Source: Prauserella marina (lineage in GTDB: Bacteria; Actinomycetota; Actinomycetes; Mycobacteriales; Pseudonocardiaceae). From it: DNA of 64,000 nt. Every line of letters begins with the position of its first letter. Positions within the stretch are counted from its first letter, which is position 1. This document shows positions 1,764-51,772 of the stretch, in pieces. A model generated the notes under the pieces. That model saw nothing but the letters and a program-made list of their open reading frames with translations, ran no database searches and was not told where the DNA came from. Position numbers and translations under genes: made by a program. Location of the stretch: contig NZ_CP016353.1 in assembly GCF_002240355.1 (NCBI RefSeq), positions 2,344,501 through 2,408,500 on the forward strand, read 5' to 3'.

Positions 1764-1785
1764 GACCCCTCCGATAGCAGCGTTG

Positions 1786-2403: not shown

Positions 2404-2470
2404 GCCCGCTAGGACCATGCCGATAGGTATTTCGTTCCGCAAACGAGCAAATCGCACGATGGGTGCACGG

Positions 2471-3073
2471 TCAGGCGAAGTGGCTGATCACGATTCGTTT
2501 CCACTCGGCGAGAAGCTGCTCGCGGCGGTGCGGATCGCCGCCCAGTTCGGCGTCGAGCGCCAGGCCCCTGGTGAGGTTGACCGTCAGCCAGTACACGAGC
2601 TCGACCTTCTCCCTGGGAAGACTGCCCGACATGGTCGCGATGTCTTCGAGAGTGGAGCGGCCGAGCGCGCGGTCGACGGGCCGCATCGCGGCCCGGAGTT
2701 CGGCGTCGGTGCGCGCCGCGATCCACAGCTCCGTCGCGGCGATCGCCAGCGTGCCGGAGTAGGACTCCCACAGCAGGTCGATGGCCGCGGTGATCCTGGC
2801 CGTTCCCTCGGGCAGCCGGTCCAGATCGGTGGCGCCCTTGTCCTTGAGCTTGCCCGCGAGCTGTTCGACGGCGGCCGCCATCAGTTCCGCCTTCGTCGCG
2901 AAGTGGTGCTGGACCGCTCCTTTCGACACCCCAGCCCTCGCGCAGATCTCCGGCATCGAGGTCCGGCCGTAGCCCAGTTCGACGAGGCAGTCGATGGTGG
3001 CGTCCAGTAGCGCCGTCCTCGTCCGTTCGCTGCGCTGGGCCTGCGTGCGGTGCCCTCTGTCCTGGGCGGTCAC
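2471..3073 (-). CDS. TetR-family transcriptional regulator
   Basis: A 200-residue TetR repressor. The helix-turn-helix lies near residues 20-65 (LLDATIDCLVELGYGRTSM, then ICARAGVSKGAVQHHFATK), and the rest is a helical ligand-binding domain. The GTG start at 3073 follows a GGGGAAAAGG ribosome site; a much longer frame exists upstream but runs antisense to the dehydrogenase. It is divergent from the acyl-CoA dehydrogenase/racemase operon, with a palindrome (3126-3143) between them, so it probably controls that operon and itself. The likely ligand is an acyl-CoA or fatty acid, by analogy with other TetR/FadE pairs; this is inference. Confidence 0.85.
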   Translation of the reverse strand: MTAQDRGHRTQAQRSERTRTALLDATIDCLVELGYGRTSMPEICARAGVSKGAVQHHFATKAELMAAAVEQLAGKLKDKGATDLDRLPEGTARITAAIDLLWESYSGTLAIAATELWIAARTDAELRAAMRPVDRALGRSTLEDIATMSGSLPREKVELVYWLTVNLTRGLALDAELGGDPHRREQLLAEWKRIVISHFA

Positions 3074-3107
3074 CCTTTTCCCCTTTACCCGTCGCGGCTG
3101 TCGCTGT

Positions 3108-3143
3108 ACATTCCGGGCAGAACTTACATTCCAGATGGAATGT
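3108..3143. promoter_or_regulatory. Operator for the divergent TetR regulator
   Basis: ACATTCC-AGAT-GGAATGT is a perfect 7-bp inverted repeat at 3126-3143, preceded by a further ACATTCC half-site at 3108-3114. Both lie in the 102-base gap between the divergent TetR and acyl-CoA dehydrogenase starts, where a repressor would cover both promoters. This is not a KstR-type site. Confidence 0.6.
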
Positions 3144-3175
3144 TTTCCAGTCGCCGGTGACGAGGAGGACAGGCC

Positions 3176-4327
3176 GTGGCGTTGCGGATCCAGCGAAGCT
3201 CCTGGATGAACGAGGACCTCGACGATTTCCGGCAGCTCGCGAAAACCTTCTGCCAGAAGGAACTCACGCCGAATCAGGATCGGTGGATCGCGGCCAAGCA
3301 GGTCGACCGTGCACTGTGGACGAAAGCGGGCGAGGTCGGTCTGCTCGCGCTGTCGATCCCCGAGGAATACGGCGGAGGCGGCGGAACCTTCGCGCACGAG
3401 ACGGTGCTGTACGAGGAACAGGCTCGCAGCGGTGACGGCGCGTGGGGTGTTTCGGTGCACAACGGCATCGTCGCCCACTACCTGCTCGCCTACGCCGACG
3501 AGGAGAAGAAGCGTGAATGGCTGCCGAAGCTCGCCAGCGGCGAGTACGTCGGCGCCATCGCCATGACCGAACCCGGCACTGGGTCGGATCTGCAGGGCAT
3601 CAAGACTCGCGCGGTGCGGGAAGGTGACGAGTACGTCATCAACGGCGCGAAGACCTTCATCACCAACGGCGCACACGCCGATCTCGTCGTCGCCGCGGTC
3701 AAGACCGATCCCAGTGAGGGCGCGAAAGGTGTTTCGCTCGTCGTCATCGAGACGTCGGCACCGGGATTCCGCAGGGGCAGGGTGCTCGACAAGGTCGGGC
3801 TGCGCGGCCAGGACACCGCCGAGCTGTTCTTCGACGACGTGCGGGTCCCCTCCGCGAACCTGCTCGGTACCGAAGAGGGGCAGGGCTTCATCCAGCTCAT
3901 GCAGCAACTGCCCCAGGAACGGCTCATCATCGCCGTCACCGCGGTGGCCGGCATGGAGGCCGCGATCGAACAGACCCTCGATTACACCAAGGAGCGCACC
4001 GCCTTCGGGCGGCCCGTCTTTTCCTTCCAGAACACCAAGTTCACGCTCGCGGAAGCCGCGACGGAGGCGGCCGTGGCGAGGGCTTTCCTCGACCAGTGCG
4101 TCGAACGGCACCTCAAGGGCGAGCTGGACGTCCAGGGCGCGGCGATGGCGAAACTGTGGACGACGGAGCGGGTCAACAAGGTCATCGACGACTGCGTGCA
4201 GCTCTTCGGCGGCTACGGCTACATGACCGAATACCCGATCGCGAGGGCGTGGGCAGACGTGCGCATCTCGCGCATCTTCGGCGGTACCAGCGAAATCATG
4301 AAGGACATCATCTCAAGGACCCTGTGA
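3176..4327 (+). CDS. Acyl-CoA dehydrogenase (FadE family)
   Basis: A 383-residue flavoprotein that introduces the alpha,beta double bond into an acyl-CoA. The N-terminal helical domain is followed by the FAD/substrate motifs AIAMTEPGTGSDLQGIKT (about residues 123-140) and the C-terminal RTAFGRPVFSFQ and QLFGGYGYMTEYPIARAWAD. The usual MCAD glutamate position reads GGT in RIFGGTSEIM; a glutamate in AAIEQTLDYTKERTAFG sits where isovaleryl- and long-chain dehydrogenases keep theirs, suggesting a branched or long substrate. The GTG start follows GAGGAGGAC. It is probably co-transcribed with the racemase downstream. Confidence 0.88.
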   Translation: MALRIQRSSWMNEDLDDFRQLAKTFCQKELTPNQDRWIAAKQVDRALWTKAGEVGLLALSIPEEYGGGGGTFAHETVLYEEQARSGDGAWGVSVHNGIVAHYLLAYADEEKKREWLPKLASGEYVGAIAMTEPGTGSDLQGIKTRAVREGDEYVINGAKTFITNGAHADLVVAAVKTDPSEGAKGVSLVVIETSAPGFRRGRVLDKVGLRGQDTAELFFDDVRVPSANLLGTEEGQGFIQLMQQLPQERLIIAVTAVAGMEAAIEQTLDYTKERTAFGRPVFSFQNTKFTLAEAATEAAVARAFLDQCVERHLKGELDVQGAAMAKLWTTERVNKVIDDCVQLFGGYGYMTEYPIARAWADVRISRIFGGTSEIMKDIISRTL

Positions 4328-4379
4328 GCCCGGTGGTGACGACAGGGAACGACAGGACAATGTGGAAGGACGGCAATCG

Positions 4380-5522
4380 ATGAAGGCAGGACCGCTCGGC
4401 GGTCTGAAGGTGATCGAACTGGCCGGGCTCGCACCCGCGCCGTTCGCCTGCACCGTGCTCGCCGACCTCGGCGCCGACGTCATCAGGGTCGACAGGTCGG
4501 TGCCGGGGGAGGACGTGCTGGCCCTGCCCTACGACCCGCTGGGGCGGGGCAGGAGAAGCATCGGCGTCAACACCAAGACCGCCGAAGGCGTCGAGGTGGT
4601 GCTCGCGCTCGCCGAAAAGGCCGATGTGCTCATCGAGGGCTTCCGGCCGGGTGTCGCCGAACGCATCGGCCTCGGGCCCGAGCAGGTGCGGGCGCGCAAT
4701 CCGAGGTTGATCTACGGCAGGGTGACCGGCTGGGGACAGGACGGGCCGCTCGCGCGCACCGCCGGGCACGACATCAACTACCTCGCGCTGTCCGGCGTGC
4801 TCGACACCATCGGCAGGGAGGGCGAACGCCCCGTGCCGCCGGTGAACTATCTCGGCGACTTCGGCGGGGGAGGGCTCTTCCTCGCCATGGGGGTGCTGTC
4901 GGCGTTGTACGAGCGCACGTCCTCGGGCATGGGCCAGGTCGTCGACGCCTCGATGGTCGACGGCGCCGCGCTGCTGAGCACCCAGCTCTTCGGGCTCAAG
5001 GCCAGCGGAGCGTGGGAAGGCGAACGGGGGCGGAACCTGCTCGACGGCGGCGCCCCTTTCTACGACACCTATGAATGCGCCGACGGCAAGTACGTCGCGG
5101 TGGGCGCGCTGGAGATGCGGTTCTGGGCCGCCCTTGTCCAGGTTCTCGATCTCGACGCCGCCGAACTTCCCGTTCACCTCGACCAGCGGGAGTGGCCGAA
5201 GCTGCGCGGGATACTGGCCGAGGCGATCGGCAGGTGGAACCGCGACGAACTCGTGGCGAGGGCCGAGGGCACCGACGCCTGCGTCACGCCCGTGCTCAGC
5301 CCGTGGGAAGCGGCCGAGCATCCGCACAACGCGGCGCGGGGCACGTTCGTCGACGTCGGCGGCGTGCGCCAGCCCGCCCCTGGTCCCAAGTTCGACCGGA
5401 CCCCGCCCGCGACACCGGAGCCACCGCGCGAGAAGGGCGCCGACACCGCGGATGTGCTGGCGGAGCTGGGATTCGACGAGGACCGGATCGCCGCTTTGCT
5501 GGCAGCGGGCGCGGTCGGCTGA
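4380..5522 (+). CDS. mcr: Alpha-methylacyl-CoA racemase (CaiB/BaiF family)
   Basis: A 380-residue CaiB/BaiF enzyme, the usual length for the bacterial racemase that interconverts (2R)- and (2S)-2-methylacyl-CoA so branched chains can be beta-oxidised. It starts GGLKVIELAGLAPAPFACT, and GWGQDGPLARTAGHDINY, NYLGDFGGGG and YDTYECADGKY carry the His, Asp and Glu that form the proton-transfer set in Mycobacterium Mcr. The start ATG at 4380 follows GGAAGGA and lies 52 bases after the dehydrogenase stop. With that dehydrogenase it makes a small 2-methyl-branched acyl-CoA module. A CoA-transferase function is the main alternative. Confidence 0.85.
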   Translation: MKAGPLGGLKVIELAGLAPAPFACTVLADLGADVIRVDRSVPGEDVLALPYDPLGRGRRSIGVNTKTAEGVEVVLALAEKADVLIEGFRPGVAERIGLGPEQVRARNPRLIYGRVTGWGQDGPLARTAGHDINYLALSGVLDTIGREGERPVPPVNYLGDFGGGGLFLAMGVLSALYERTSSGMGQVVDASMVDGAALLSTQLFGLKASGAWEGERGRNLLDGGAPFYDTYECADGKYVAVGALEMRFWAALVQVLDLDAAELPVHLDQREWPKLRGILAEAIGRWNRDELVARAEGTDACVTPVLSPWEAAEHPHNAARGTFVDVGGVRQPAPGPKFDRTPPATPEPPREKGADTADVLAELGFDEDRIAALLAAGAVG

Positions 5523-9814: not shown

Positions 9815-11015
9815 TGATCAGCCTCCCTTCCGAGATGCAGTACGTGCGCAACGGCGGGATGCCGTTGAACGCGACGGACGAATAGCTTGCCGTGTAAGCG
9901 CCGGTGGCCAGGATGTCGAGCTGGTCGCCCGCGCGCAACGACAGCGGAAGGTGGTATGGCGTGCGCTGGTACAGCACGTCGTCACCGTCGCACGTCGGGC
10001 CCGCGATGATCACCCGCTCGCCGGTGGCCTCGCCGGGGGAGCCGACCGGCTCGATCCGGTATGCGATGGCCTCGTTCTCCGTTTCGGCGAGACCGTTGTA
10101 CCTGCCGACGTCGAGGTAAACCCATCTTTCACTGTCCATAGTGGATTTTCGAGAGACGAGGACGACCTCGGTTCTGATGAGCCCGGCCTCGGCGACGATC
10201 GCTCTGCCCGGCTCGATGACGAGCTCGGCAGGCAGGTCGTGCACATGTGTGCGCACGGCTTCGGTGATCGCTTTCGCGTATGTGGCCGGTTCAGGCGCCC
10301 GCCCGCGATAATCCGTTCCGATCCCGCCGCCGACGTTGAGAGCGCGCAGCGGGATTCCGGTTCGCGCCGCCGCGGCGAAGACCGGAGCCGCCGCGGCCAT
10401 GGCGCCGTCCCACGCGGCTGGATCGTTGTGCTGGGAGCCGACGTGGAAGCTGACGCCCTTGGGATCGAGACCCGCGCGCGCCGCCCGCTTCAGCAACGCG
10501 ATCGCGGTGTCGGCGTCACAGCCGAACTTGCGCCCGAACGGGGTCGCGGCTCCATCGGCGTTCACCAGCAGGCGAACGGAGATCTCGGCCCCCGGGGCGT
10601 GTTCCGCGACGTTGTCGAGGTCGCTTGCCGCCTCGACGGTGAAGTCCCTGACCCCGGCCGCGAACGCCGTCGCGATGTCGCCCGGTTTCTTGATCGTGTT
10701 GCCGTAGGACAAGGTCGCCGGGTTCGCTCCCGCGTGCAGACACGACTCGATTTCCGCTGGGCTCGCCACGTCGAAGTGTGCTCCCTCGGCCGCGAGCGCG
10801 CGCAGTACGGCCGGACTCGGATTGGCCTTGACCGCGTACTGCACGCGGTAGCCCGCGAAGTCACGAGCGAGCGCTCGGTAGCGGTCGGCGACCGAGCCGA
10901 GGTCGACGACGAGGCACGGCGTCGGAAGCGGGTTCCGGTCAAGGAACTCGCGGATCCGCGCCGTGGCCCGGTTCGCGCTGGTCGCGCCCGTCGCCGCGGT
11001 GTGCTCTGCCGTCAC
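9804..11015 (-). CDS. Group IV PLP decarboxylase (ornithine/lysine/diaminopimelate type)
   Basis: A 403-residue alanine-racemase-fold decarboxylase. The PLP lysine is in YAVKANP (Lys63), the phosphate-binding glycines in LNVGGGIGTDY, and the active-site cysteine-aspartate in GPTCDGDDVLY; SFHVGSQ is also diagnostic. Position directly upstream of speD and speE argues for ornithine decarboxylase making putrescine, although lysine or 2,4-diaminobutyrate cannot be excluded. The GTG at 11015 lacks a good ribosome site, and the frame is open far upstream through non-coding-looking sequence; the N-terminus is therefore tentative. Confidence 0.85.
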   Translation of the reverse strand: MTAEHTAATGATSANRATARIREFLDRNPLPTPCLVVDLGSVADRYRALARDFAGYRVQYAVKANPSPAVLRALAAEGAHFDVASPAEIESCLHAGANPATLSYGNTIKKPGDIATAFAAGVRDFTVEAASDLDNVAEHAPGAEISVRLLVNADGAATPFGRKFGCDADTAIALLKRAARAGLDPKGVSFHVGSQHNDPAAWDGAMAAAAPVFAAAARTGIPLRALNVGGGIGTDYRGRAPEPATYAKAITEAVRTHVHDLPAELVIEPGRAIVAEAGLIRTEVVLVSRKSTMDSERWVYLDVGRYNGLAETENEAIAYRIEPVGSPGEATGERVIIAGPTCDGDDVLYQRTPYHLPLSLRAGDQLDILATGAYTASYSSVAFNGIPPLRTYCISEGRLISVE

Positions 11016-12700
11016 GACAGTCAGCGTCTCAGGCCCGGATGACCGGGCGGGGAGCAGGGCGGCGTGCACGTGCAGTGGGGCACAGTCACCCCGGGCGACC
11101 GGGGTCGCGCACGTTCGCGTGGGTCCACATTGGATGTTGCAGCTTGCGTGGGTAACGGGAGAATCACGATGGCGGTGGGTTGGGTCCGGTCCGGTGAATC
11201 CCGGTTTTGTGATCGCGCGAAAAGAATAGGTGGCCGACAATAAGAGACTCACGGCCATTCGAATATTGTCCGCGCCCATTTTCGAGTTTTTCGCGTGCGT
11301 TTTTATGGTGGTCGGCGAAAAAGCCGCGTCCGGTGTGTCCCGGGGTCGTGAGCGGCCCGTCCTGGCGCTCGGCCGCACCACGGGTGACCGGCCACGACAG
11401 GTCGTTGACCGATCGCGGAGAGTGGCAAGCCGGGCTGTCCGCGGGGTGTTCACTGGCTGCCGAGGCCGGGGTGACGGTGCGTGCTCGGGTGGCGGGTCTC
11501 GCTCGGCCGCCATGATCGAGGCCGGGTCCCTCGGCAGGTCGGCGCGGAGTTTTGGAATGCGAGGTGAAGTGTCGTGCGTGGCCGTGGGGTGCGAAATATG
11601 AAAGTTCACCCTTCCTGGTGGATTCGATCGTGACTCGGCGTTATCGGCGGTGGCGATCTTGCCGACTGAAAGAGGTTCAGCAGGGGTTTGGCGCTGACAT
11701 GAAAGGTACTCAGGGTAGCTGTTGCCAGTCAGTCGGAGCGGGAACGAGCGCGTGTCCCCGGTGACTCGCGTTCATGCGCATGGCCTAACCTGAGCGGAGA
11801 TACCACCAGGCCAGGGCGAAAATCCTGGGCGAGGTGAAGCGGGCGAGTCCTTCATGCGATGACTGATCGAGCCACAACTTCGTGCACATTTCCGTGACAT
11901 CACTCCACCGTGGGAGGGTTCTGGCTAGGCCATCCGAGGGATCACTCGCCGGGTCTTGCTCTATGTGGGTGACGCTTGATGTCTCGCACACCATGAAAGC
12001 GGTAACCGAATTGGTGGCCCGATCTTCGTCATGTGTGAATGCGCGGGCCTCTCCGCGTCGGCATTGTGCATTTCTCCTGGTCACGGGCTGAGCCTTTGCG
12101 AACATTTGCCCTGCGCTTGTTTGGTGTACGCTTTCTGGCGCCCCGGTCAAATGTCAATTCCGGCGCCAACACCGTCTAGACGGCATGCAGTTCGCATGAT
12201 GCGGTGGTCGGCGCCCTGGTGGTTGACGACGGACCGGCCACAGCGACAGCACCGAGCACGACCAGCGGCACCGACGACAGCGCACGACAGTGCGCGAAGA
12301 CGACAACGACAACACAGGCCGGCGGACCAGGTGAAACCCACCGGAGTACGACCGGCACGACAGTGCGGGACCCGTGTGAACAGGCACGAACCGGCATGAG
12401 CAGGCACAAGCGTGGCATCGGCGAGCACGAGCGGACTCGGACGGACATGGGGACATGGGTACGGACACGGCCTCGGCCGGTGCACGCCGCACCGTTCGTC
12501 ACCGGCGCCAAGAGCGGCACGGTCGGCAGCGGTAGAAGCGGTGGCGAGGACCGGGCTCATCCGCGATGCCTGCCCGGCCGTGCTCCTCGCGGCGTGCTGA
12601 TCGGAAGCGGTCACCGGAGTCCCGACATGCCTGACGTGCCGAGCGTGCCACCCGTGAGCCGTCGCGAGACAGCGAGTGAGCCGGAGGAGGAGTCACCTTC
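11016..12700. other. 1.7-kb region without a supportable gene
   Basis: Reading frames here lack family motifs and consistent codon bias. Around 11200-11320 and 11580-11720 the sequence is clearly poorer in GC, as in promoters or decayed DNA. From about 12200 to 12680 it becomes rich in short CGACA/CGGCAC repeats, including a perfect GCGCAC-GACA-GTGCGC hairpin at 12280-12295. A 121-codon minus-strand frame (11785-12150) looks more protein-like than the others but matches nothing I know. The end of the region carries the ribosome site of cvnA. Confidence 0.45.
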
Positions 12701-15700
12701 GTGACCGTTGCAGGAGAAGGCCAAGTGCCTGTGGGCAAGCTCCTCGGCCAGCCGGCCCCGAAGCCGTCCCGGTGGCGGGCCGCGACGCGCTGGCGTGACT
12801 GGAGCCTTCCGGTCAAGCTGGGGGCGATCACCCTGATCCCCATCATCGTCGCGCTGGCTCTCGGCGGGGTCACCCTGGGCAGCCAGCTCGGCGAGGCAGA
12901 CCGCTACGAGCGGGTCGACGCGCTCGTGAAGCTGGACACCTCGGCGGCGGCGCTGCTCGACGGCGTCCAGCGCGAGCGGGCGCTGACCGCCGACGCGCTC
13001 ACCCAGGGCACCGGCGCGGCCTCCGCCGAGTTGCGCGAGGCGAGGGCGGCCGTCGACGCCGCGGCGGGCCCGGTCAACGCGGCAGCGGGACCGGCTGTCG
13101 AACTCGAACCCGGCATCGCTGGTCAGCGACAGGATGTCGCCGACCAGCTCGGCGGGCTCGCCGAACTCCGCGAGCGGGTCGGCGCGGGACAGGTCGGCCC
13201 CATCGAGGCCGTCACCGAGTACACGGCGCTGACCACCGCCCTGCTCAACCTGGACACCGCGCTGGTGAGCGGCATGGGCGACACCGAGATCGGCGCGACC
13301 CCCAGCGCGCTGCACAACCTGCTCGTCGCCAAGGAGGAGGTTTCCCTCCAGCAGGCCCTCATCGGGTACGGCATCGGCAGGAGTGGGCTCGCGCCAAGCG
13401 AGTTCAACCAGGTCCGCACCTCCGACGTGCGGCTGACCGACCGCCTCGCCGAGTTCGGCAGCGCCGCGACCGAGAGTCAGCGGCAGGATTTCGACAGCAG
13501 CGTGCGTGGCGAGGCATTCGACGAACGCGACCGGATCGTCAAGGGCGTGCTCGCCGCGCAGGACACCGGCAGCGGGGAGGCATTCCGGACCGAGACGGCC
13601 CAGCAATGGCGGGGCCTTTCCGGCTCGGTGTTCACCAGCATGGGCGAGGTCGGTGACCGGCTCGGCGGCCAGCTCGCCGCGACGGCGAGCGACCTCGCCG
13701 GCGGCGCGAGCACCACTGTCGTCGTGCTCGCTGTGTTGTTCGTCGTCGCGCTCCTGCTCGCCGCCGCCGTGGTCTTCCTGGTCACCCGCCAGCTTCTCCG
13801 CTCGCTCAAGGTGCTGCGCACCACGGCGCTCGACGTCGCGGAGCACGGGCTGCCGGAAGCGGTGCGCACCATCCAGGAGGGGCGTTCGCAAAGCGCGGAG
13901 CTCAGCCCGACCCCTGTCCACACCGACGACGAGATCGGCCAGGTGGCCAGGGCGTTCGACGCCGTGCACGCCGAAGCGCTGCGGCTCGCGGCCGAACAAG
14001 CGGGCATGCGCACCGGCTACGCCAGCGTCTTCGTCAACCTCTCCCGCAGGAGCCAGAGTCTCGTCCAGCGTCAGCTACAGCTCATCGAGCGGCTCGAACG
14101 CGACGAGGAGGATGCCGACCAGCTCGCGACGCTGTTCCAGCTCGACCATCTCGCGACCCGCATGCGGCGCAACAACGAGAACCTGATGGTGCTTTCCGGC
14201 GCCGAGCCCGGCCGCCGGTCCGGTCAGCCGGTCAGCGCCACCGACGTACTGCGTGCCGCCGTGTCGGAGATCGAGCAGTACCAGCGGGTCGTCGTGCAGA
14301 CTCCGCCCTCGGTCAGGATCGTCGGTTACGCCGCTGGAGACCTCGTCCGGCTCGCGGCCGAACTCCTCGACAACGCCACCGCGTTCTCCGCGCCGGAGAC
14401 ACAGGTGACGGTGGCGACCAGGTTGATGGAGGACGGCTCGCTGACCGTCGACATCATGGACAAGGGCATCGGCATGAACGAGGCCGAGGTCGCCGAGGCC
14501 AACGCTCGCCTCACCGAGGCGGGTTCGGTCGATCTCGCGACCTCGCGCCGCATGGGGCTCTTCGTCGTCGGCAGGCTCGCCGGACGGCACAACTTCGGCG
14601 TCGTACTGCACGGCGGCAAGGACATCGTCGGCGTGCGGGCGACGGTGAGCGTGCCCGCGGAACTGGTGATGGGCGCGCAACAGCAACAACAGCCCTCCGG
14701 TACGAGTGCCCAGCAGGTACCGGCTGTCGCCGCCGTTCCGGAGACTCCGGCACAGCCTTCGGCGCCACATCCGGCGACCCCGTTGCCGCCGAAGACGCCG
14801 GGCGGGCTGCCCCGCAGGAAACCCAACGGCACCAGGCGGCCAGGTGTCCTGCAAGACCTCGCTGGTGGCGCTGTGCGGCAGTCGCCATCGGACACCGAGG
14901 TGTCGGGGACGGCGCTGTTCACGCCCATCGGCAAGGAAGAGCAGCAGCAGGCGAAAGAAGCGGCTCCGGCATGGCCGGACGCGGCGGACGAGGCGAGGGA
15001 GAAGGCCGAGTCCGAGTCGGCGGCGGAGGTGACCGCGGCCTTCGCGAAGCCGGACCTGGAAGAGCCAACGCCGGACGAGCGAACGGAATCCGAGCCGGAG
15101 ACCGAGGGCGCGCTCGCGCGGAGCACTCCCACCGAACGCATCGACCCCACCGTGCACAGTGGACAGCCGGGTGCCGGGAGCGCGGCCACCAGGCCGGAGG
15201 ACGAGCCGGAACCCGCGGCGCCGTCCTCGACCAAGGTCACCGCGAAGTCGGGCTCCCCGACGGCGGCCGCGAAGGCGCCGGAGGTGGATCCGCTCAGCGG
15301 TGAGGCGTTGTTCGAAGCCACCGGAACAGTGGTGAGTGACTGGTGGAGTGCGGCAACGACGGCGAGCGACGCCGAACGCAGGGCACAACGCGCGCGGTCG
15401 GTGTCCGAGACGACCCCGATCTTCGACGAGATGCTGTCCGCCTGGTTCAGGAGCGTCAGCGAATCGCCTTCGGAGACCTCGGGTGGCGCGAAGAAGGAGT
15501 GGGATTTCGCCGCCGACGAGCGGTGGCGCACCGTGCAGGCGGTGTCCCGCACCTCGCCATCGGATTACACGCAGGCGGGTTTGCCGCGCCGGAGGAAGGG
15601 CGAGCAGTTGCTGCCCGGCAGCGCCGCGGCAGGCCAGGCGAGCGCGAGTGCCGCGCGGGCCGCCGTGGCGAAGGCGCCGCCTCCGCCACAGCAGCCCAGC

Positions 15701-45066: not shown

Positions 45067-45080
45067 TAGAACGTGTTCCA
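45067..45080. promoter_or_regulatory. KstR operator (cyp125 promoter)
   Basis: TAGAACGTGTTCCA fits TnnAACnnGTTnnA exactly and lies 25 bases upstream of the cyp125 ATG. Confidence 0.82.
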
Positions 45081-45105
45081 ACGACGTATGTCGGAGGTAC
45101 GGCGC

Positions 45106-46332
45106 ATGAGCTCGTCGCTACTGCCCACCGGATTCGACTTCACCGATCCCGACCTGTACGCGACCCGGCTGCCGCTGGAGGAGTTCGCGCTGCTCCGGCG
45201 GACGGCGCCGGTGTGGTGGAACCCGCAGTCGCACAACAAGGCCGGGTTCGGCGACGACGGGTTCTGGGTGGTGACCCGCCTCGAAGACGTCAAGGCGGTG
45301 TCGAGAGACAGTGAACTGTTCTCCTCACAGGAGAAGACCGCCATCATCCGGTTCGACGAGACGATGACCAAGGAAGGCATCGAGGCCAACCGGCTGGTCC
45401 TGCTCAACATGGATGCCCCGCAGCACACGAAACTGCGCCGGATCGTGTCGAAGGGGTTCACGCCGAGGGCCATCGGCAAACTGGAGGACACGCTGCGGGA
45501 GCGGGCCAGGCACATCGCGAGGGCCGCGAAGGAGAAAGGCTCAGGCGACTTCGTCGCCGACATCGCCTGCGAACTTCCCTTGCAGGCCATCGCGGAGCTC
45601 ATCGGGGTCCCGCAGGACGACCGGCTCAAGATCTTCGACTGGTCCAACCAGATGATCGGCTACGACGACCCCGAATACGACGTCGACCCGCTCACCGCCT
45701 CGGCCGAACTCGTCGGCTACGCGTGGAACATGGCCGAGGAACGGCGCGGTTGTCCCATGGACGACATCGTCACCAAACTCATTCAGGCCGATGTGGACGG
45801 TGAGGCGCTCTCGTCGGACGAGTTCGGGTTCTTCGTGATCCTGCTCGCCGTCGCGGGCAACGAGACTACGCGCAACGCGATCACCCACGGAATGAAGGCA
45901 TTCCTCGATCACCCCGACCAGTGGGAGCTCTACAAACGCGAGCGCCCCAAGACCGCGCCTGACGAGATCGTGCGCTGGGCGACCCCCGTGGTTTCCTTCC
46001 AGCGCACGGCGACGGCCGACACCGAACTCGGCGGCCAGCACATCCGCAAGGGCGACCGGGTGGGCATGTTCTACAGTTCGGCCAACTTCGACCCCGAGGT
46101 GTTCGAGGAGCCGGAGAAGTTCGACATTTTGCGGAAGGACAACCCGCATGTCGGGTTCGGCGGCACCGGATCGCACTACTGCATCGGCGCCAACCTCGCG
46201 AGGCTGGAGATCGACCTCATCTTCAACGCCATCGCCGACGAGATGCCGGACATCAGGGAACTCGCGCCGCCCGACCGGCTGCGTTCCGGCTGGCTCAACG
46301 GAATCAAGCACTACCAGGTCGCCTACGAATGA
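45106..46332 (+). CDS. cyp125: Cytochrome P450 Cyp125 (steroid C26 monooxygenase)
   Basis: A 408-residue P450. The oxygen-activating I-helix is VAGNETTRNAITHG (about residues 253-266), the ExxR pair is followed by PVVSFQRTATADTELGG, and the haem loop is FGGTGSHYCIGANLARLE. It oxidises C26 of cholesterol or cholestenone to the carboxylate that FadD19 activates. The ATG at 45106 has GGAGGTACGGCGC before it, which sets the start; an earlier in-frame ATG at 45088 would place that site inside the gene. A KstR operator sits at 45067. Confidence 0.95.
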   Translation: MSSSLLPTGFDFTDPDLYATRLPLEEFALLRRTAPVWWNPQSHNKAGFGDDGFWVVTRLEDVKAVSRDSELFSSQEKTAIIRFDETMTKEGIEANRLVLLNMDAPQHTKLRRIVSKGFTPRAIGKLEDTLRERARHIARAAKEKGSGDFVADIACELPLQAIAELIGVPQDDRLKIFDWSNQMIGYDDPEYDVDPLTASAELVGYAWNMAEERRGCPMDDIVTKLIQADVDGEALSSDEFGFFVILLAVAGNETTRNAITHGMKAFLDHPDQWELYKRERPKTAPDEIVRWATPVVSFQRTATADTELGGQHIRKGDRVGMFYSSANFDPEVFEEPEKFDILRKDNPHVGFGGTGSHYCIGANLARLEIDLIFNAIADEMPDIRELAPPDRLRSGWLNGIKHYQVAYE

Positions 46333-46339
46333 GTCGGCC

Positions 46340-46371
46340 GAGCCGCCCGCCGCTTCCGTGGTGGGCGGCTC
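46340..46371. terminator. Hairpin after cyp125
   Basis: GAGCCGCCC (46340-46348) and GGGCGGCTC (46363-46371) form a perfect 9-bp GC stem, 7 bases after the cyp125 stop, between convergent genes. It marks the left boundary of the XRE/RNR cassette. Confidence 0.65.
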
Positions 46372-46417
46372 GACGGGGTTTCTCTCGCGTGACGGTCAGG
46401 ATGGCTCCGGCCCGCGG

Positions 46418-46791
46418 TCATGTGGTGCGAGGTGGGTCGACGAGTTCGATGCCGATCGCGACGACGCCGAGGGCTTCGCGCTCGGGGGATAGATCTGCCG
46501 GATGTTCGCGAGCTGGTCGTCGCGGGTGGCATGCGGGTTGACCGAGGACACCTTCTCGTGGTCGAACATCTCGTCGAAGTTTCGCGTAGCGGGCGATGCG
46601 AGTGACGCGGGTGAGGACTTCGTCGCCCTGACAGCGGAACCGGATCAGTGAGCCTTCCTTGATCTTTTTGCGGCGGAAGTCGTTGACCCGGATCTCGGTC
46701 GTCTTGCGGCCGGTGCAATGAGGTCGAAACAACGCTCGTAAATACCCATCTCGTGGGCGCGAACGACTGCTTCGGTGGGGCGGGCGGTCAT
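46418..46791 (-). pseudogene. ASCH-domain protein gene broken by three frameshifts
   Basis: Piecing three frames together gives one ASCH-family protein. It starts MTARPTEAVVRAHEMGIY (ATG at 46791), then TGRKTTEIRVNDFRRKKIKE, then FDEMFDHEKVSSVNPHATR and DDQLANIRQIYPP, and ends EREALGVVAIGIELV. Frame breaks are near 46715 (a missing base), 46582 (an extra A in an AAA run) and 46484-46488 (a missing C in a C5 run). A continuous 104-codon frame survives, but its middle third is out of phase. ASCH domains bind RNA or modified nucleosides. The gene follows the XRE regulator by 21 bases. Decay or base-call errors at short homopolymers are both possible. Confidence 0.72.
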
Positions 46792-46812
46792 GAGTCGGCC
46801 TAGTTCCTGTGG

Positions 46813-48183
46813 TCAGACGACGGCGTGGACCCGCTGGGCAAGTTTGGGTAGCCCCGGCATCGCGGCGTGCTTGGACGATTCCATGAGGTCGGTAACCAGT
46901 CGCCGGACGGCGTTGCGGGTGCGTACCTCGCCAGGCGCGGTGCGCTCGGCCGCGAGCAGGGTTCGGTATGCCTGGTCGGGTTTATCCCACTGCGCCCACG
47001 CCTGCGCGGCGTCCACGAGCAGCCGCGCACGACGTTCGGTGGTGGGGATCGCGGCCAAGGGCAGACTGCGCGCGTGTGCGAGCGCGGTACCAGCGTCACC
47101 GAGTACGTAGGCTGCGGAAACCTTGTGACTGACCAGATTCGCGACCAGGGTACGGTGCCGGTCGTGGTCGTCGGCCAACCTGTTCGCGGTGACCTCGGCT
47201 TTGGCGAGTAAGTCACTCGCTCGCTCGCGGTTGCCGGCGCGGGCGGCGGCGTAGGCGGCCGACAGGTGCAGCGTGCCGTACATCGCCAAGTGTTCGGGTA
47301 CTGGGCGTGGCCCTGCAACGTCCAAATAGGACGCCGCGGCCAAGGTCAGGTTCTGTGCGCGGTCGTGATGGCCGGCGCGGCGGGCAACCGATGCGACCAG
47401 TCGCTGCGCCTCGACCAGCGTAAGGGAGTCCTCGGCGGTTCGAGCGGCGCGCAGGGCACGGTCAGCCGATAGCCATTCCAGGCCGGAGGTCTCCAGTTTG
47501 ATCAGCGCTCGGGTAGCGAGGTTGTAAGACTCGGCGAGTACCCGCTGCGTATGCGGCTCGGGCCGCTGGGCGGAGCTGGCCTCGGCGGCGGTGATCAACG
47601 CGGGTAGCCGCGACGCGAGCGGGAGGTAGCGGCAGGCGGTGAACTCCTGCTGGGCCACGGCCAGGGCCTCACTCAGAACACCCACTCCCGTGGTCGGCTC
47701 GTCGGACTGCGCGGAACCGAGCAACACGTCACCAAGCCGACTGGCAAGCACCGCGGCGGGGTCGACCTCGGTGGCGTGAGCCGCCATCGGCCAGGCGAAC
47801 GTGCTGCCGGTAAGGGCGGCGAGCTGGAGGAACGCGCGTCGGCGCACCGGGTCGTCCTCCTCCGTAGGTGGGGTCGTGACCCGGCCCACTCTATTCCTCG
47901 CCGTGGTGGCTGTCCGGGAAGGTCGTTCGGTCGTGTCGCCGAGCCCGAATGCCGCTGGTGGTAAGGCGAGCACCTTGGCCAGGGTGCGCAGGAGTTCCAC
48001 GTCCCGCAGCGGCATTCGGCCGGTTTCCCAGCGGGACACCTGGCTCGCTGAATAGCCGCAGCGGCGGCCCAGTTCGGCCTGACTCCAGTTCAGGGCGGTG
48101 CGGGCGACTCGGACAACCGTGCCGGGACCGGGGTGCTGGTGTGGCGAAGCCATGACTACTTCGCCGTGCGCGTCAGGTGACAT
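46813..48183 (-). CDS. XRE-family regulator with TPR-like C-terminal domain
   Basis: A 456-residue protein: N-terminal XRE helix-turn-helix (LNWSQAELGRRCGYSASQVSRW, about residues 28-50), a twin-arginine-like stretch RRRAFLQLAALTGSTFAWP typical of actinobacterial XRE proteins, and about 330 residues of helical repeats (LLAKAEVTANRLADDHDRH, AAYVLGDAGTALAHARSLP) like tetratricopeptides. It would sense a ligand or partner and control neighbouring genes. The ATG at 48183 is set by GAGGAGGCACCGTC; a later ATG at 48153 is possible. Divergent from the ribonucleotide reductase-like gene; 182 bases lie between. Confidence 0.85.
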   Translation of the reverse strand: MSPDAHGEVVMASPHQHPGPGTVVRVARTALNWSQAELGRRCGYSASQVSRWETGRMPLRDVELLRTLAKVLALPPAAFGLGDTTERPSRTATTARNRVGRVTTPPTEEDDPVRRRAFLQLAALTGSTFAWPMAAHATEVDPAAVLASRLGDVLLGSAQSDEPTTGVGVLSEALAVAQQEFTACRYLPLASRLPALITAAEASSAQRPEPHTQRVLAESYNLATRALIKLETSGLEWLSADRALRAARTAEDSLTLVEAQRLVASVARRAGHHDRAQNLTLAAASYLDVAGPRPVPEHLAMYGTLHLSAAYAAARAGNRERASDLLAKAEVTANRLADDHDRHRTLVANLVSHKVSAAYVLGDAGTALAHARSLPLAAIPTTERRARLLVDAAQAWAQWDKPDQAYRTLLAAERTAPGEVRTRNAVRRLVTDLMESSKHAAMPGLPKLAQRVHAVV

Positions 48184-48365
48184 GACGGTGCCTCCTCGTG
48201 AAGCGACCAGCGGTCCCACCGTAGCGGTTGCCGCCGTGCCCGCCAGAGAGTTTGCAGGATCTGCACACCGCGTGCCTGGCCGGTAAGACCCACTGCCGAC
48301 GAGGAACGATCACCGGTTGCGTGGCAGGAGTCCAGCGGTTCGACCGATACGAAGGGCTTCTGCCG
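48184..48365. promoter_or_regulatory. Divergent promoter region of the XRE/RNR cassette
   Basis: The 182 bases between the XRE start and the ATG of the ribonucleotide reductase homologue. No KstR site and no recognisable cobalamin riboswitch core are visible. A likely place for the XRE operator, but no clear dyad was found by eye. Confidence 0.4.
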
Positions 48366-50063
48366 ATGTATGCCTCGACTTTCCAAACCAGCCCCGCCAC
48401 TGACGCCTACCTCCGTTCCGGGCGGATCATCGCACCTCGCGAGACTGGCCAGGACATGGTGACTCGGATCGTCACCGCCCTGGCCGACGCGGATGCCCAA
48501 TTCGACCCAATCGGTGCGGAATGGTTCGCGAAGCGGCTCGGGCGGGCGATGGATACCGCCCGAATCGTGTTCTCCACCCCGATCATGACCAATGCAGGCC
48601 GTTATCCGGATCGGCCATTGGCCGCGTGCGCGGTTCCGCCGGTGGACCTGCGCGGCGACCTAGCCGCGGTGAAGACCGTGGTGGACGAATACCACCAGGC
48701 GGGGATGGGCACCGGGTTCAACCTCAACGACCTGACCAACCCGGTGGAAATGCTGCGCTACCTCAACGACATCGCCGTGGAGGGAGCCCACTCCGGGGGC
48801 GAGGACCGACCGGTCGGCAACATGGCGATCCTGTCCCTCTCGCACCCGGCGGTTGAGGAGTTCATCGGCTGCAAGGTCGGTGCCGACGCTCGCGGGGAGG
48901 AGTGGAAGTTCAACATCTCCCTGCTCGTCACCGACGAGCAGATGCGCGCCGCCATCGCCCGCCGCGGGCGGGAACGCAAGCTGCTGGCCATGGTGGCCGA
49001 GGCCGCGTACGCCTGTGCCGACCCCGGTCTGCTGTTCGCCGACCGGATGAACGAGGCCAACCCTACTCCCGCCGTTGGCGACTACGTCTCGACCGCGCCG
49101 TGCGCCGAGGTCGGGCTGGTGGCCGGGGAGACCTGTCAGTTCGGCTACGTCAACCTGGGACGCTTCCACACCGGTACCGGCGACGTCCCGGTGGACCTGG
49201 ACGCACTGGCCGACACCGTGCATACCCTGGTACGGGCGCTGGACGACGCGATCGAGGCTAGCCTCGATCACTACCCCAACCCGCTGTCCACGCGGGTGAT
49301 GGGCGTCAAACGCAAGATCGGCGTCGGGATATGCGGCCTGGCTGACCTGCTGCTTTCCGCTGGTCTGCCCTACGACAGCGCCGACGGGCGGCAACTCGTC
49401 ATGGAAGTACTGGCGTTCGTCAACTACACCTCCAAGCTCGCCTCGATGCGGCTCGCCCGCACCCGTGGCGCGGCCCCTGCAATCCACAGTGGACTGTCCC
49501 GGTATGCCGACCCGGACTTTCTCAAGCGGTTCGCCACGCTCGACGTCCGTACCGTGACCAGCCGCGAGTGGGACATGCTCGCGCAGGAGATCGCCTCGAC
49601 GGGGATGCTACGCAACTCCTCGACGATCGCCGTGCCACCGACCGGGCGCAGCGCCCCGGTCGTGGGTGCTTCGACGGGGATTGAACCGTTGTTCCGGCTC
49701 ACCGACCCGCACCTTGCCGGCCAGCTGCACCCGGCAGTCCTCGCCACTCTGGAAGCGGCGAACTGTAACGACCTACTCGACTACGTCATGACCCACGGGC
49801 GGCTGCCGGACGACGCCGGTGTCACACCGTATCTGGCCGCGGTGCTGGCTACTGCCACCCAGATCGCCCCAAGTGGACACTTGGCGATGGCCGCCGCAGT
49901 GCAGGCGTGTGTGGACGAGGCGGTGTCCAAGACGGTGAATCTGCCCGCCACCACTACACCGGCCCAGGTGTACGACACCTACGTGGCCGCCTGGGAGGCC
50001 GGGTGCAAGGGCGTTACCGTCTACGTGGACGGCTCGCACCGGGTCCAGCCCAAAGCGCTGTGA
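48366..50063 (+). CDS. Short class II-like ribonucleotide reductase homologue with altered active site
   Basis: A 565-residue protein with the ten-stranded radical-enzyme barrel of ribonucleotide reductase. Its motifs are Cys88 (LAACAVPP), STAPCAEVGL, Cys257 (ETCQFGYVNL), KRKIGVGICGLADLL, PPTGRSAPVVGASTGIEPL and EAGCKGVTVYVDGS near the end. The central triad normally reads Asn-x-Cys-x-Glu; here it is Ala244-Pro-Cys246-Ala-Glu248, so the Asn known to be essential in class I enzymes is missing. It is much shorter than usual NrdJ and lacks the C-terminal Cys pair region. Probably cobalamin-dependent, from resemblance to class II. ATG after GAAGGG. The real reaction is unknown; the NUDIX gene follows. 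Confidence 0.82.
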   Translation: MYASTFQTSPATDAYLRSGRIIAPRETGQDMVTRIVTALADADAQFDPIGAEWFAKRLGRAMDTARIVFSTPIMTNAGRYPDRPLAACAVPPVDLRGDLAAVKTVVDEYHQAGMGTGFNLNDLTNPVEMLRYLNDIAVEGAHSGGEDRPVGNMAILSLSHPAVEEFIGCKVGADARGEEWKFNISLLVTDEQMRAAIARRGRERKLLAMVAEAAYACADPGLLFADRMNEANPTPAVGDYVSTAPCAEVGLVAGETCQFGYVNLGRFHTGTGDVPVDLDALADTVHTLVRALDDAIEASLDHYPNPLSTRVMGVKRKIGVGICGLADLLLSAGLPYDSADGRQLVMEVLAFVNYTSKLASMRLARTRGAAPAIHSGLSRYADPDFLKRFATLDVRTVTSREWDMLAQEIASTGMLRNSSTIAVPPTGRSAPVVGASTGIEPLFRLTDPHLAGQLHPAVLATLEAANCNDLLDYVMTHGRLPDDAGVTPYLAAVLATATQIAPSGHLAMAAAVQACVDEAVSKTVNLPATTTPAQVYDTYVAAWEAGCKGVTVYVDGSHRVQPKAL

Positions 50064-50100
50064 CCATGATCGGAGGTGAGCGGATCTTTCCGAGGTGATG

Positions 50101-50589
50101 ATGACCGACCCGACGGCGCGGACCGGGCACTACGTGTTCGACACCAAGCACGACCGCTACCCCGTGGCTGTGCACGTGATCCTCACCGACCACCACGGGC
50201 GCGTACTGCTCATGCGCCGGGCCGGGTCCGGCTACGCCGACGGCCGGCTCGGCCTTCCGGCCGGGCATGTCGACCGGGGGGAGGTCCCGACCGACAGCGC
50301 GGTCAGGGAGATCGCCGAGGAACTGGGCATCCGGCTTGATCCAGCAGCGCTGGAGCCAGGTGGGACGATGTTTCGCCGTTCCCTGGAGCCGAGGGTGGAT
50401 TTTTTCTTCCTCGCCCGATCCTGGATCGGGAACCCGCGAATCCGCGAACCGCGCAAGTGCACCGAACTCGTGTGGGCTTACCCCGATGCCCTGCCCGTCG
50501 ACGCACTGGACTTCATCGGTGCGGCCATCACCAATGCCCGCACCGGACGTCACTTCCACGAGTACGGCTGGGAAAACGCGAAGGCGTAG
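50101..50589 (+). CDS. NUDIX hydrolase
   Basis: A 162-residue NUDIX protein. The full NUDIX box GHVDRGEVPTDSAVREIAEE with LGI following (Gx5Ex7REUxEExGU) lies near residues 58-80. The start VAVHVILTDHHGRVLLMRR and the WGN/RKCTELVWAYPD region are typical of small nucleoside-diphosphate-X hydrolases. The ATG at 50101 is preferred (GAGG at 50092-50095); ATG at 50098 is the alternative. It stands 37 bases after the ribonucleotide reductase homologue and is probably co-transcribed. Substrate unknown; a nucleotide made or consumed by the neighbour is a reasonable guess. Confidence 0.9.
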   Translation: MTDPTARTGHYVFDTKHDRYPVAVHVILTDHHGRVLLMRRAGSGYADGRLGLPAGHVDRGEVPTDSAVREIAEELGIRLDPAALEPGGTMFRRSLEPRVDFFFLARSWIGNPRIREPRKCTELVWAYPDALPVDALDFIGAAITNARTGRHFHEYGWENAKA

Positions 50590-50611
50590 ATCCACTCGGA
50601 CTCGCGACGGC

Positions 50612-51772
50612 TCACGGTTTGTCGGCGGAAACGAGCCACATCGCGAAATACTGGGAGCCGCCGCCGTAGGCGTGTCCCAGCGCGACCCTGGCGCCGTCGA
50701 CCTGATAGTCGCCCGCCCTGCCCATCACCTGCTTCGCGGCCTCGGAGAAGCGCAGCATGCCGGAGGCCCCGATGGGATTGGACGACAGCACCCCGCCGGA
50801 GGGGTTGACCGGAAGACGCCCGCCCAGCGCGGTGTCTCCCGCTTCCGTCACCCGCCAGCCTTCGCCCTCCTTCGCGAAGCCGAGATTTTCCAGCCACATC
50901 GGCTCGAACCAGGAAAACGGGACATAGATCTCCGCTGTGTCCACTTCGGACATCGGATCGGTGATTCCCGCTTCCCGCCACAGCGCGGCGGCCGCATCCC
51001 TTCCCGCTTGCGGGTTGACCTGGTCGCGGCCCGCGAACGTGGTGGGCTCGGTACGCATGGCGGTCGCGGTGATCCACGCGGCGCCGCCCTCGACGGCATC
51101 ACCCGCCGCCTCGTCGCCGAGCACCATCGCGCACGCGCCGTCGGAGGAAGGGCAGGTCTCGTCGTAGCGGATCGGGTCCCACAGCATCTTCGACGCCCGC
51201 ACCGAATCGACCGTGATGTCGGGTTGCCTCAGGTGCGCGTACGGGTTGAGCGCGCCCTGCCTGCGGTCCTTGGCCGCGACGACGGCGCCGATGTGCTCCG
51301 GCGCGCCGGAACGGCGGATGTAGGACCGGACGTGCGGCGCGAAGTAGCCGCCCGCGCCCGCGCCCACCGGCATCTGGAACGGCGGCAGAATCGACAGTGC
51401 CCACATCGCGTTGGACTCCGACTGCTTCTCGAAGGCCACCGTGAGCACGCGCTGGTGTACGCCGGCCTGGACGAGGCTGGCAGCCACCAGCGCCGTCGAC
51501 CCGCCGACCGAACCGGCGGTGTGCACGCGCAGCAACGGTTTGCCCACCGCGCCGAGCGCGTCGGCCAGTGACAGTTCCGGCATCATGACGCCCTCGAACA
51601 TGTCGGGCGCCTTGCCGACGACGACGGCGTCGATGTCGGGCCAGTCGACACCGGCGTCGGCCATCGCCCTGTCCACCGCTTCCCTGAGCAGCCCCGGCAT
51701 CGACACGTCGGTGCGCTTCGCGCGATGGTGCGTCTGTCCCGTACCGAGTACCGCGGTGCGCAGCTTGCTCAA
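50612..51772 (-). CDS. ltp3: Thiolase-like sterol side-chain protein Ltp3
   Basis: A 386-residue SCP-x-type thiolase-fold protein, close in length to Rv3523 (Ltp3). The start reads KLRTAVLGTGQTHHRAKR, followed by RVHTAGSVGGSTALVAASL (the position of the thiolase nucleophile), YDETCPSSDGACAMVLGDE and NPSGGVLSSNPIGASGM with HAYGGGSQYFA at the end. Ltp3 and Ltp4 of Rhodococcus are required for C24-branched side chains (plant sterols), where they act as aldolases. The start is TTG at 51772, three bases after the ltp4 stop; no ATG or GTG fits the family N-terminus. Last gene of the DUF35-ltp4-ltp3 operon. Confidence 0.85.
   Translation of the reverse strand: MSKLRTAVLGTGQTHHRAKRTDVSMPGLLREAVDRAMADAGVDWPDIDAVVVGKAPDMFEGVMMPELSLADALGAVGKPLLRVHTAGSVGGSTALVAASLVQAGVHQRVLTVAFEKQSESNAMWALSILPPFQMPVGAGAGGYFAPHVRSYIRRSGAPEHIGAVVAAKDRRQGALNPYAHLRQPDITVDSVRASKMLWDPIRYDETCPSSDGACAMVLGDEAAGDAVEGGAAWITATAMRTEPTTFAGRDQVNPQAGRDAAAALWREAGITDPMSEVDTAEIYVPFSWFEPMWLENLGFAKEGEGWRVTEAGDTALGGRLPVNPSGGVLSSNPIGASGMLRFSEAAKQVMGRAGDYQVDGARVALGHAYGGGSQYFAMWLVSADKP

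Follow-up and report, generated by a model that had tools for sequence, protein, structure and literature searches.

The DNA analysed here, a 64-kb stretch of a 6.99-Mb Prauserella marina genome (hereafter, the window; positions 2344501-2408500 of contig C1, genome G000), carries a 4.28-kb interval between the genes cyp125 and ltp3 (Table 1), and the contents of that interval are our subject. They comprise genes for an XRE-type regulator, a protein resembling ribonucleotide reductases (RNRs) and a NUDIX hydrolase, with the remains of an ASCH gene alongside. A preliminary description had taken all four for a nucleotide-related cassette, without sterol function, set into a sterol locus. The nucleotide-type character of the enzymes is supported, as are the divergence of the regulator and RNR homologue and the presence of a NUDIX hydrolase, in which the Nudix box (GX5EX7REUXEEXGU) is intact. 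The unit itself proved smaller. At locus L052 (genome G100), which belongs to another genus, a 3.8-kb stretch is homologous to the XRE, RNR-like and NUDIX genes, with 86% of the nucleotides identical, and two further loci match the window at 46809-50514 (L053, 76%) and at 46823-50574 (L054, 72%). The limits of these cross-genus matches lie near the ends of the XRE and NUDIX genes, with the ASCH stretch outside. The block is a three-gene module, consisting of an XRE regulator, a divergent RNR-like gene and a NUDIX gene, beside a decayed ASCH gene.

Table 1. Features of the cyp125-ltp3 interval and its borders, in window coordinates.
Feature	Position	Strand	Basis or remark
RNR-like radical enzyme, 565 aa	48366..50063	+	Ribonuc_red_lgC 224.3 bits; NrdJ_Z 330 bits
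Cys88, first redox cysteine equivalent (T. maritima Cys134)	48627..48629	+	profile alignment
Finger loop A244-P-C246-A-E248 (canonical N-P-C-x-E)	49095..49109	+	profile alignment
Cys257, second redox cysteine equivalent (T. maritima Cys333)	49134..49136	+	profile alignment
NUDIX hydrolase	50095..50589	+	NUDIX 66.7 bits; intact Nudix box GHVDRGEVPTDSAVREIAEELGI
XRE-type regulator gene	46813..48219	-	HTH_31 42.1 bits; start 48183 or 48153 possible
Probable operator GTTTGCAGGATCTGCACAC	48250..48268	+	divergent promoter; conserved upstream of RNR-like genes with the same regulator type
Conserved module as DNA unit	46810..50595	.	86% nucleotide identity with L052 (G100, another genus)
Inserted stretch	46333..50611	.	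between cyp125 and ltp3 stop codons; DNA-homology limits relative to congeners
Decayed ASCH gene and last residues of former upstream gene	46424..46809	-	three frame changes; outside module
Perfect 9-bp hairpin, 14-nt loop	46340..46371	+	arms 46340-46348 and 46363-46371, after cyp125
cyp125	45073-46332		convergent with ltp3
ltp3	50612-51772		convergent with cyp125

Readable RNR-like proteins of this kind number 17 (members, below), and the clade they form spans two actinobacterial classes, an alphaproteobacterial plasmid and one viral contig. Loci L051-L063 come from 12 genomes of the host family, to which L065 (genome G010, 40%) also belongs; L105 comes from G1241, in another class of the phylum, L108 from the plasmid pTM3 of Tistrella mobilis, and L142 from the IMG/VR contig IMGVR_UViG_3300020195_001307. 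For comparison we used other RNR loci, 34 of 38 having passed our filter, with L097 and L107 being the same gene. A tree built from all 17 members together with 13 of these 34 rows places the members on one side of a branch with values of 100/99; the program flagged long branches in it.

The window's RNR-like frame begins at the ATG at 48366, which is conserved in relatives, and not at the TTG at 48228; the Pfam and NrdJ_Z scores in Table 1 were taken on the longer frame from the latter. The catalytic barrel of RNRs is present (PF02867), and the NCBIfam NrdJ_Z score lies below that model's curated cut-off of 399.95. A profile of 14 members matched the class II RNR of Thermotoga maritima (1xje) with an E-value of 5e-83. 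As counted on this alignment, A244, C246, E248, C88 and C257 correspond to Asn320, Cys322, Glu324, Cys134 and Cys333 of 1xje. The last four of these positions in the window protein are invariant in all 14 aligned members, which thus retain the thiyl cysteine, the glutamate and the redox cysteine pair. The finger loop is altered: where 1xje reads S-T-N-P-C-G-E, the family reads S-T-A-P-C-A-E, with T-A-P-C-A-E invariant in the 14 aligned members and APCAE found in all 17. N-x-C-x-E occurs in every one of the 34 comparison rows and in no member. The asparagine lost here is reportedly essential in the RNR of E. coli. A passage of PMC4493059 names it as one of two residues by which class I and class II enzymes hold the ribose of the substrate. 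According to section 2.5 of PMC9669993, N-x-C-x-E is common to classes O, I and II, with NPCxE in 3,175 of 3,347 class II sequences; the other 172 motifs are not itemised in that section and APCAE, unmentioned there, could be among them.

A second change affects the C-terminus. Cysteines after the end of the barrel are absent from 13 of the 17 members, while L108, L142 and L061 have one each and L063 has three; the run-on tails of L061 and L063 are taken as altered frames. Among the comparison rows, 32 of 34 carry two to four cysteines within their last 20 residues (L100 has one, L010 none). Because the 15 members with a normal end have at most one cysteine after the barrel, the C-terminal pair is missing from them. 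Further differences from 1xje include the phosphate loop (PPTGRSA versus APTGSIS), in which the arginine is found in the 12 aligned actinobacterial members and is replaced by threonine in L108 and L142, and RPVGN at the position of RRGA. The host genome also carries two ordinary RNRs (637.9 and 484.7 bits). The earlier label of class II-like RNR homologue fits as regards the barrel and needs correction: with the Asn-to-Ala exchange in all 17 members and the tail pair missing from the 15 with a normal end, the protein departs from ordinary class II RNRs. The loss of a normally constant residue from the catalytic centre suggests a present role in making or destroying an unusual nucleotide. Two single cases may be recorded here. 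In L063 (1805-3988) the RNR-like frame continues for about 175 residues beyond its expected end, across the NUDIX gene, and its 3' end may be shifted. L010 (G043:C127) is another odd RNR, which retains NPCGE and has serine at the expected second redox cysteine.

Gene calls in unannotated loci relied on open frames and codon-position composition, and neighbouring genes at other loci were domain-searched in part. A NUDIX gene lies within two genes of the RNR-like gene in 15 of the 17 members (L051-L060, L062, L063, L065, L108 and L142). The window NUDIX protein has homologues in those of L108 (E-value of 6e-16) and L142 (1e-25), while that of L065, a NUDIX protein by Pfam, has no match to those of the other members. 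An XRE-type regulator adjoins the RNR-like gene in 13 of 17, divergently in 12 and downstream in L065. The divergent regulators comprise six like that of the window, five of a second type (L056, L058, L059, L061 and L063; BLAST clusters place L058, L059 and L061 there) and that of L105. The preliminary description had suggested asking whether XRE, ASCH and NUDIX genes recur beside RNR-like homologues in unrelated loci, and had named a constant absence of XRE and NUDIX neighbours as a refutation; XRE and NUDIX genes do recur at other loci, and the refutation does not hold. Within the second regulator type, the helix-turn-helix (HTH) regulator at L056:7339-8952, divergent to the RNR-like gene, carries a peptide deformylase domain as a fusion, and L063 has these parts in separate frames.

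Distant members have additional companions. A PfkB-family kinase adjoins L105, L108 and L142, and a search of 72,556 plasmid records with the L142 kinase (E 1e-5) returned a single match, the Tistrella kinase, for which reason a chance association of NUDIX, RNR-like and PfkB genes is unlikely; a phage search with the same protein gave no match. L065 and L105 have in common an HD-domain protein (43% identity), and L065 also has a cytidine deaminase gene. On pTM3, the first possible start of a TIR-like gene follows the PfkB gene by 63 bp, with PF10137 at the TIR-like end. Its product (L108:8589-10181) is a protein of 530 residues whose C-terminal part is TIR-like, of the CAP12/Pycsar type, and whose N-terminal part is unnamed; weak PADLOC PDC-S35 matches (19-24 bits) also occur here. 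On the viral contig, about 9.1 kb are present twice, head to tail, with identical proteins (open reading frames (ORFs) 803-5170 and 9920-14287); the module lies between the two copies, beside a terminase-like gene, and the duplication is perhaps an assembly effect. Elsewhere, about 3 kb separate the module regulator of L057 from a gene (11786-13099) whose protein has an ApeA-like N-terminal domain (PF18862, scoring 26.7 bits where the cut-off is 25.5), and related P-loop kinase-like proteins of 48% identity occur beside two module copies (L057:8848-9459 and L058:11320-11904).

The module appears to carry its own control. In describing the regulator as XRE/TPR-like, the preliminary description was correct in its first term; the tetratricopeptide repeat (TPR) likeness is weak, and the match to NsdA_fam_reg (49.9 bits, cut-off 75) amounts to a remote likeness. 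Loci with the window-type regulator have in common, ahead of the RNR-like gene, a conserved sequence around TTTGCAGGATCTGCACACC that stands out clearly in L051-L054 and less so in L057 and L062; for loci with the second regulator type, the shared upstream block lies around CCGTGAGTGTGCGTGAACGCACCGTGAGT, with exact copies in L056 and L061 and altered ones in L058, L059 and L063. When the 19-base operator block was sought in its own genome with up to three mismatches, one exact copy and one with three mismatches were found, and none for a control pattern. That the upstream block follows the regulator type, and that the window's block has a single exact copy in its genome, fits the idea that each type of regulator has a local operator of its own, to which the XRE-type protein would bind. 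No credible B12 riboswitch or other known RNA was found, the two matches obtained being far below gathering scores, and scans for sigma-70 promoters and intrinsic terminators returned none.

The module is sparsely distributed. In samples limited to one genome per species and capped in number, relatives of the RNR-like protein at an E-value of 1e-60 or better occur in 15 of 390 family genomes (the host included) and 10 of 46 genera, and in none of three congeners. An order-wide sample yielded seven of 298 genomes, all already in the family set, a class-wide sample one of 394, the host itself, and the class of G1241 one of 66, again G1241 itself. The named genera of five relatives are Actinophytocola (metagenome-derived), Actinokineospora, Streptoalloteichus (two) and Pseudonocardia. 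In a viral collection, a stricter signature pattern found two stretches, neither with an RNR, and a looser one found 48, of which one encodes a relative; viral searches that used L108, L142 or an alignment as query yielded at most that same contig. Phage and plasmid searches produced many RNR matches, among which the finger loop was read in one, Tistrella pTM3, a new member. Between the host (G000) and G100, synonymous divergence is 0.364 for the RNR-like gene and 0.62 for the housekeeping nrdJ, the nrdJ value between the host and congener G001 being 0.483. If rates are alike, the lower divergence of the RNR-like gene indicates a gain after the split from the congeners, and the module was likely acquired then by transfer. 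All three module genes are under purifying selection, with ratios of nonsynonymous to synonymous rates (dN/dS) of 0.19-0.30 in eight comparisons of intact copies. The flanks of other loci include a Tn3 transposase (L053), a DDE transposase fragment (L058) and genes read as etf-like (L052).

The insertion itself is evident from the congeners. In these the cyp125-ltp3 spacing is about 355 (G001), 1285 (G002) and 1771 bases (G003), and in G022, of another genus, about 100. DNA similarity to all four stops at 46328-46338 and restarts at 50612-50636 (50615-50636 for the three congeners alone). Genomes with cyp125 and ltp3 and without the block, which the preliminary description had suggested seeking, thus exist, its claim of an insertion without sterol function stands, and the opposing possibility of an ancestral, constant block does not hold, since both spacing and DNA differ among relatives. 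Seven relatives with the two genes adjacent (L085, L086, L087, L088, L089, L091 and L092) have between about 100 bases and 2.5 kb in this space, which is a general insertion site accepting different inserts. A sterol link of the block was considered and rejected. As had been stated earlier, it shows no KstR site: a strict KstR-type palindrome starts nowhere in 46333-50611 and at six places elsewhere in the window. Furthermore, neither cyp125 nor ltp3 was matched at the 16 other RNR-like loci, within up to about 9 kb on each side (less for L055, L057 and L063). The hairpin said to close off cyp125 is indeed perfect; the intrinsic terminator scan did not score it as a terminator. The reported lack of integrases and transposases is confirmed among those ORFs of the block that were domain-searched. 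A direct repeat (13 of 14 bases) links the cyp125 stop (46329-46342) with the ASCH/XRE edge (46790-46803) and may be chance or an insertion scar.

The candidate fourth gene was rejected as part of the unit, being broken and outside the DNA conserved in other genera. The ASCH stretch scores 16.2 bits against a Pfam cut-off of 21.2 and, relative to eight homologues, runs through two reading frames with three frame changes; it also retains the last few residues of a former upstream gene just beside the XRE stop codon. These broken frames, the retained residues and the position outside the unit mark it as a leftover of another gene pair. ASCH homologues (E 1e-8) occur in 13 of 150 family genomes, the host included, some matches being partial or containing a stop, and a better relative exists as a second copy in the host genome, on contig C2 (G000:C2:93550-93840). 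In L159, L162 and L164 the ASCH frame continues from an upstream gene resembling class I aminoacyl-tRNA synthetases, a likeness read from motifs, Pfam having given only ASCH and, in L164, a sub-threshold DUF3850. ASCH and the synthetase-like gene are possibly another mobile pair.

On balance, we lean towards viewing the block as a horizontally moving, self-regulated three-gene module whose radical enzyme has an altered nucleotide chemistry and which probably serves in biological conflict. The divergent XRE-type protein would hold the local operator, repressing its own divergent operon and keeping RNR-like and NUDIX expression low until triggered, and relief of this repression would allow both proteins to be made. 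The RNR-like enzyme, taken to descend from adenosylcobalamin-dependent class II RNR and with thiyl cysteine and glutamate retained, would still start thiyl-radical chemistry on a ribonucleotide. Lacking both the asparagine that positions the ribose hydroxyls and the tail that re-reduces the active site, it may yield a modified or damaged nucleotide, not the normal deoxynucleotide supply. The NUDIX hydrolase could then cleave a pyrophosphate of the product or of its precursor, releasing a nucleoside-type product or limiting toxicity. A role as a normal maker of deoxynucleoside triphosphates (dNTPs) appears unlikely because alanine replaces the asparagine and the re-reduction tail is missing. 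The conserved residues, like the partner genes (NUDIX, kinase, HD and deaminase), are consistent with a radical intermediate that takes a changed course and ends as an altered nucleotide. The most likely use would be conflict, as phage defence or antimetabolite, which the patchy spread, local operator, viral location and TIR-like neighbour favour; house-cleaning alone is disfavoured by the same patchy spread and by the alteration of the radical enzyme. Much more tentatively, this RNR-derived clade may have turned to nucleotide modification, forming a noncanonical nucleotide (its sugar converted to a 3'-keto or dehydrated form, for instance, or changed in some other way) that acts against viruses or as a signal in immunity. 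NUDIX would then release the product or serve as a safety valve, and the PfkB, HD, deaminase or TIR partners would be variants of the arrangement.

What such a module would accomplish can be read in several ways. An anti-phage system, in which a noncanonical nucleotide made upon infection poisons phage replication or signals an effector (of TIR type in the Tistrella copy), would account for the TIR-like gene 63 bp downstream of PfkB on pTM3 with its weak PDC-S35 matches, the location beside a terminase-like gene on the viral contig, the patchy spread with a local operator-like site and the ApeA-like gene about 3 kb away in L057. Kongming, which uses deoxyinosine triphosphate (dITP) and depletion of nicotinamide adenine dinucleotide (NAD) according to a passage of PMC12948488, offers a precedent. 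We nonetheless consider so specific a role somewhat unlikely: no effector gene is present in the window, effector-like neighbours were seen only in L108 and, more distantly, in L057, among neighbours that were domain-searched in part, PADLOC has no hit for the RNR-like protein, and the TIR-like gene may be an unrelated neighbour. The companion enzymes of the distant members can also be read as a minimal nucleoside-metabolite pathway, in which the RNR-like protein remodels the sugar, NUDIX (and HD) strip phosphates, and PfkB kinase and deaminase tailor or protect the product. This set resembles nucleoside-antibiotic tailoring, as with TubG and TubH in passages of PMC6112128. It is a doubtful candidate, however, in that base- or sugar-building genes and an exporter are absent from the module, a pathway of two genes would be very short, a place on a viral contig suits it poorly, and the term 'ribonucleotide reductase' is absent from the main text of the tubercidin paper (PMC6112128).

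Two readings closer to ordinary RNR biology fare worse. Retention of the thiyl cysteine, glutamate and redox pair, together with the frequency of RNR genes on plasmids and phages, would suit a spare class II RNR for dNTP supply in special circumstances, accompanied by a NUDIX enzyme for house-cleaning. Such a role is improbable given alanine at the catalytic asparagine in all 17 members, the tail pair missing from the 15 with a normal end, the score below the NrdJ cut-off, two ordinary RNRs already in the host, and companion genes that dNTP supply would not need. The low dN/dS between intact copies, the invariance of active-site residues across deep divergence and the conservation of promoter elements make a decaying, functionless paralogue very improbable, in spite of the broken copies at L064, L066 and L067 and the run-on ends of L061 and L063.

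Several observations weigh against the conflict module that we favour. Its composition is not uniform, as no NUDIX neighbour was seen in L061 or L105 and no XRE-type neighbour in L055, L060, L108 or L142. Two of the 15 family genomes (G114 and G152) have broken copies only, and with three copies broken and two running on, the module is evidently dispensable. The transfer test is positive for G100 alone, the RNR-like gene being more diverged than nrdJ in the five other genera compared, and G100 is of metagenomic origin and contains 6% contamination, so that its contig may have been mis-binned. The insertion site accepts other DNA too and is therefore not by itself a defence island. The TIR-like gene was seen once, with a PF10137 score of 24.6 bits, just below the cut-off of 24.7, and the matches by which the gene beyond the L142 kinase resembles a terminase are likewise just below cut-offs. 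PADLOC 2.0.0 contains no model matching the RNR-like protein at E 0.001; its matches to the other proteins are weak (XRE to HTH_VI, RmrA and capH at 17-22 bits; NUDIX to PDC-S07 at 31.4 bits). Finally, the class II mechanism and the adenosylcobalamin cofactor are assumed from family likeness, and an AlphaFold model of the protein was discarded for its predicted local distance difference test (pLDDT) score of 48.

To our knowledge, RNRs have been recognised only as makers of DNA precursors. Among the literature titles listed we recognised none on an enzyme resembling RNRs within a nucleoside gene cluster or a module for defence, which is no proof of absence. If true, the proposal above would offer a first sign that the radical scaffold of RNRs has been put to use in a different nucleotide reaction, by a clade lacking the asparagine common to classes I, II and O and moving as a small regulated module outside DNA metabolism. 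Both the chemistry and any effect on viruses lend themselves to direct testing, the module comprising just two enzymes.

One of the closest known systems is the class II RNR NrdJ/NrdZ of T. maritima (1xje), with which the protein shares the catalytic barrel over most of its length and the aligned thiyl cysteine, glutamate and redox cysteine pair, and from which it differs in the alanine for Asn320, the missing tail cysteine pair, the changed phosphate loop and RPVGN for RRGA. Relative to the finger loops of class I, II and O RNRs, as given in section 2.5 of PMC9669993, the C-x-E core around the catalytic cysteine is common, with N-x-C-x-E there and APCAE here. In the Streptomyces tubercidin cluster, according to passages of PMC6112128, the Nudix hydrolase TubG, assigned the last hydrolysis of the pathway and tested with an analogue, stands beside the carbohydrate kinase TubH. 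This pairing within a nucleoside pathway recalls our distant members, although the Nudix proteins are likened by description only and no RNR-like enzyme is mentioned in those passages. Viperin-type nucleotide dehydratases, which produce 3'-deoxy-3',4'-didehydro-CTP (ddhCTP), have another fold than RNRs. As partially described, they too are radical enzymes that act on a nucleotide to give an antiviral one, though they belong to the radical S-adenosylmethionine (SAM) enzymes and can be set beside the RNR-like protein by description only. In Kongming, finally, KomA is a deaminase. The passage of PMC12948488 concerned mentions no RNR-like enzyme and has dITP made via KomA, phage kinases and the host nucleoside diphosphate kinase (NDK); what our module may have in common with it is the idea of a noncanonical nucleotide joined to NAD depletion, the TIR-like gene being present in the Tistrella copy only.

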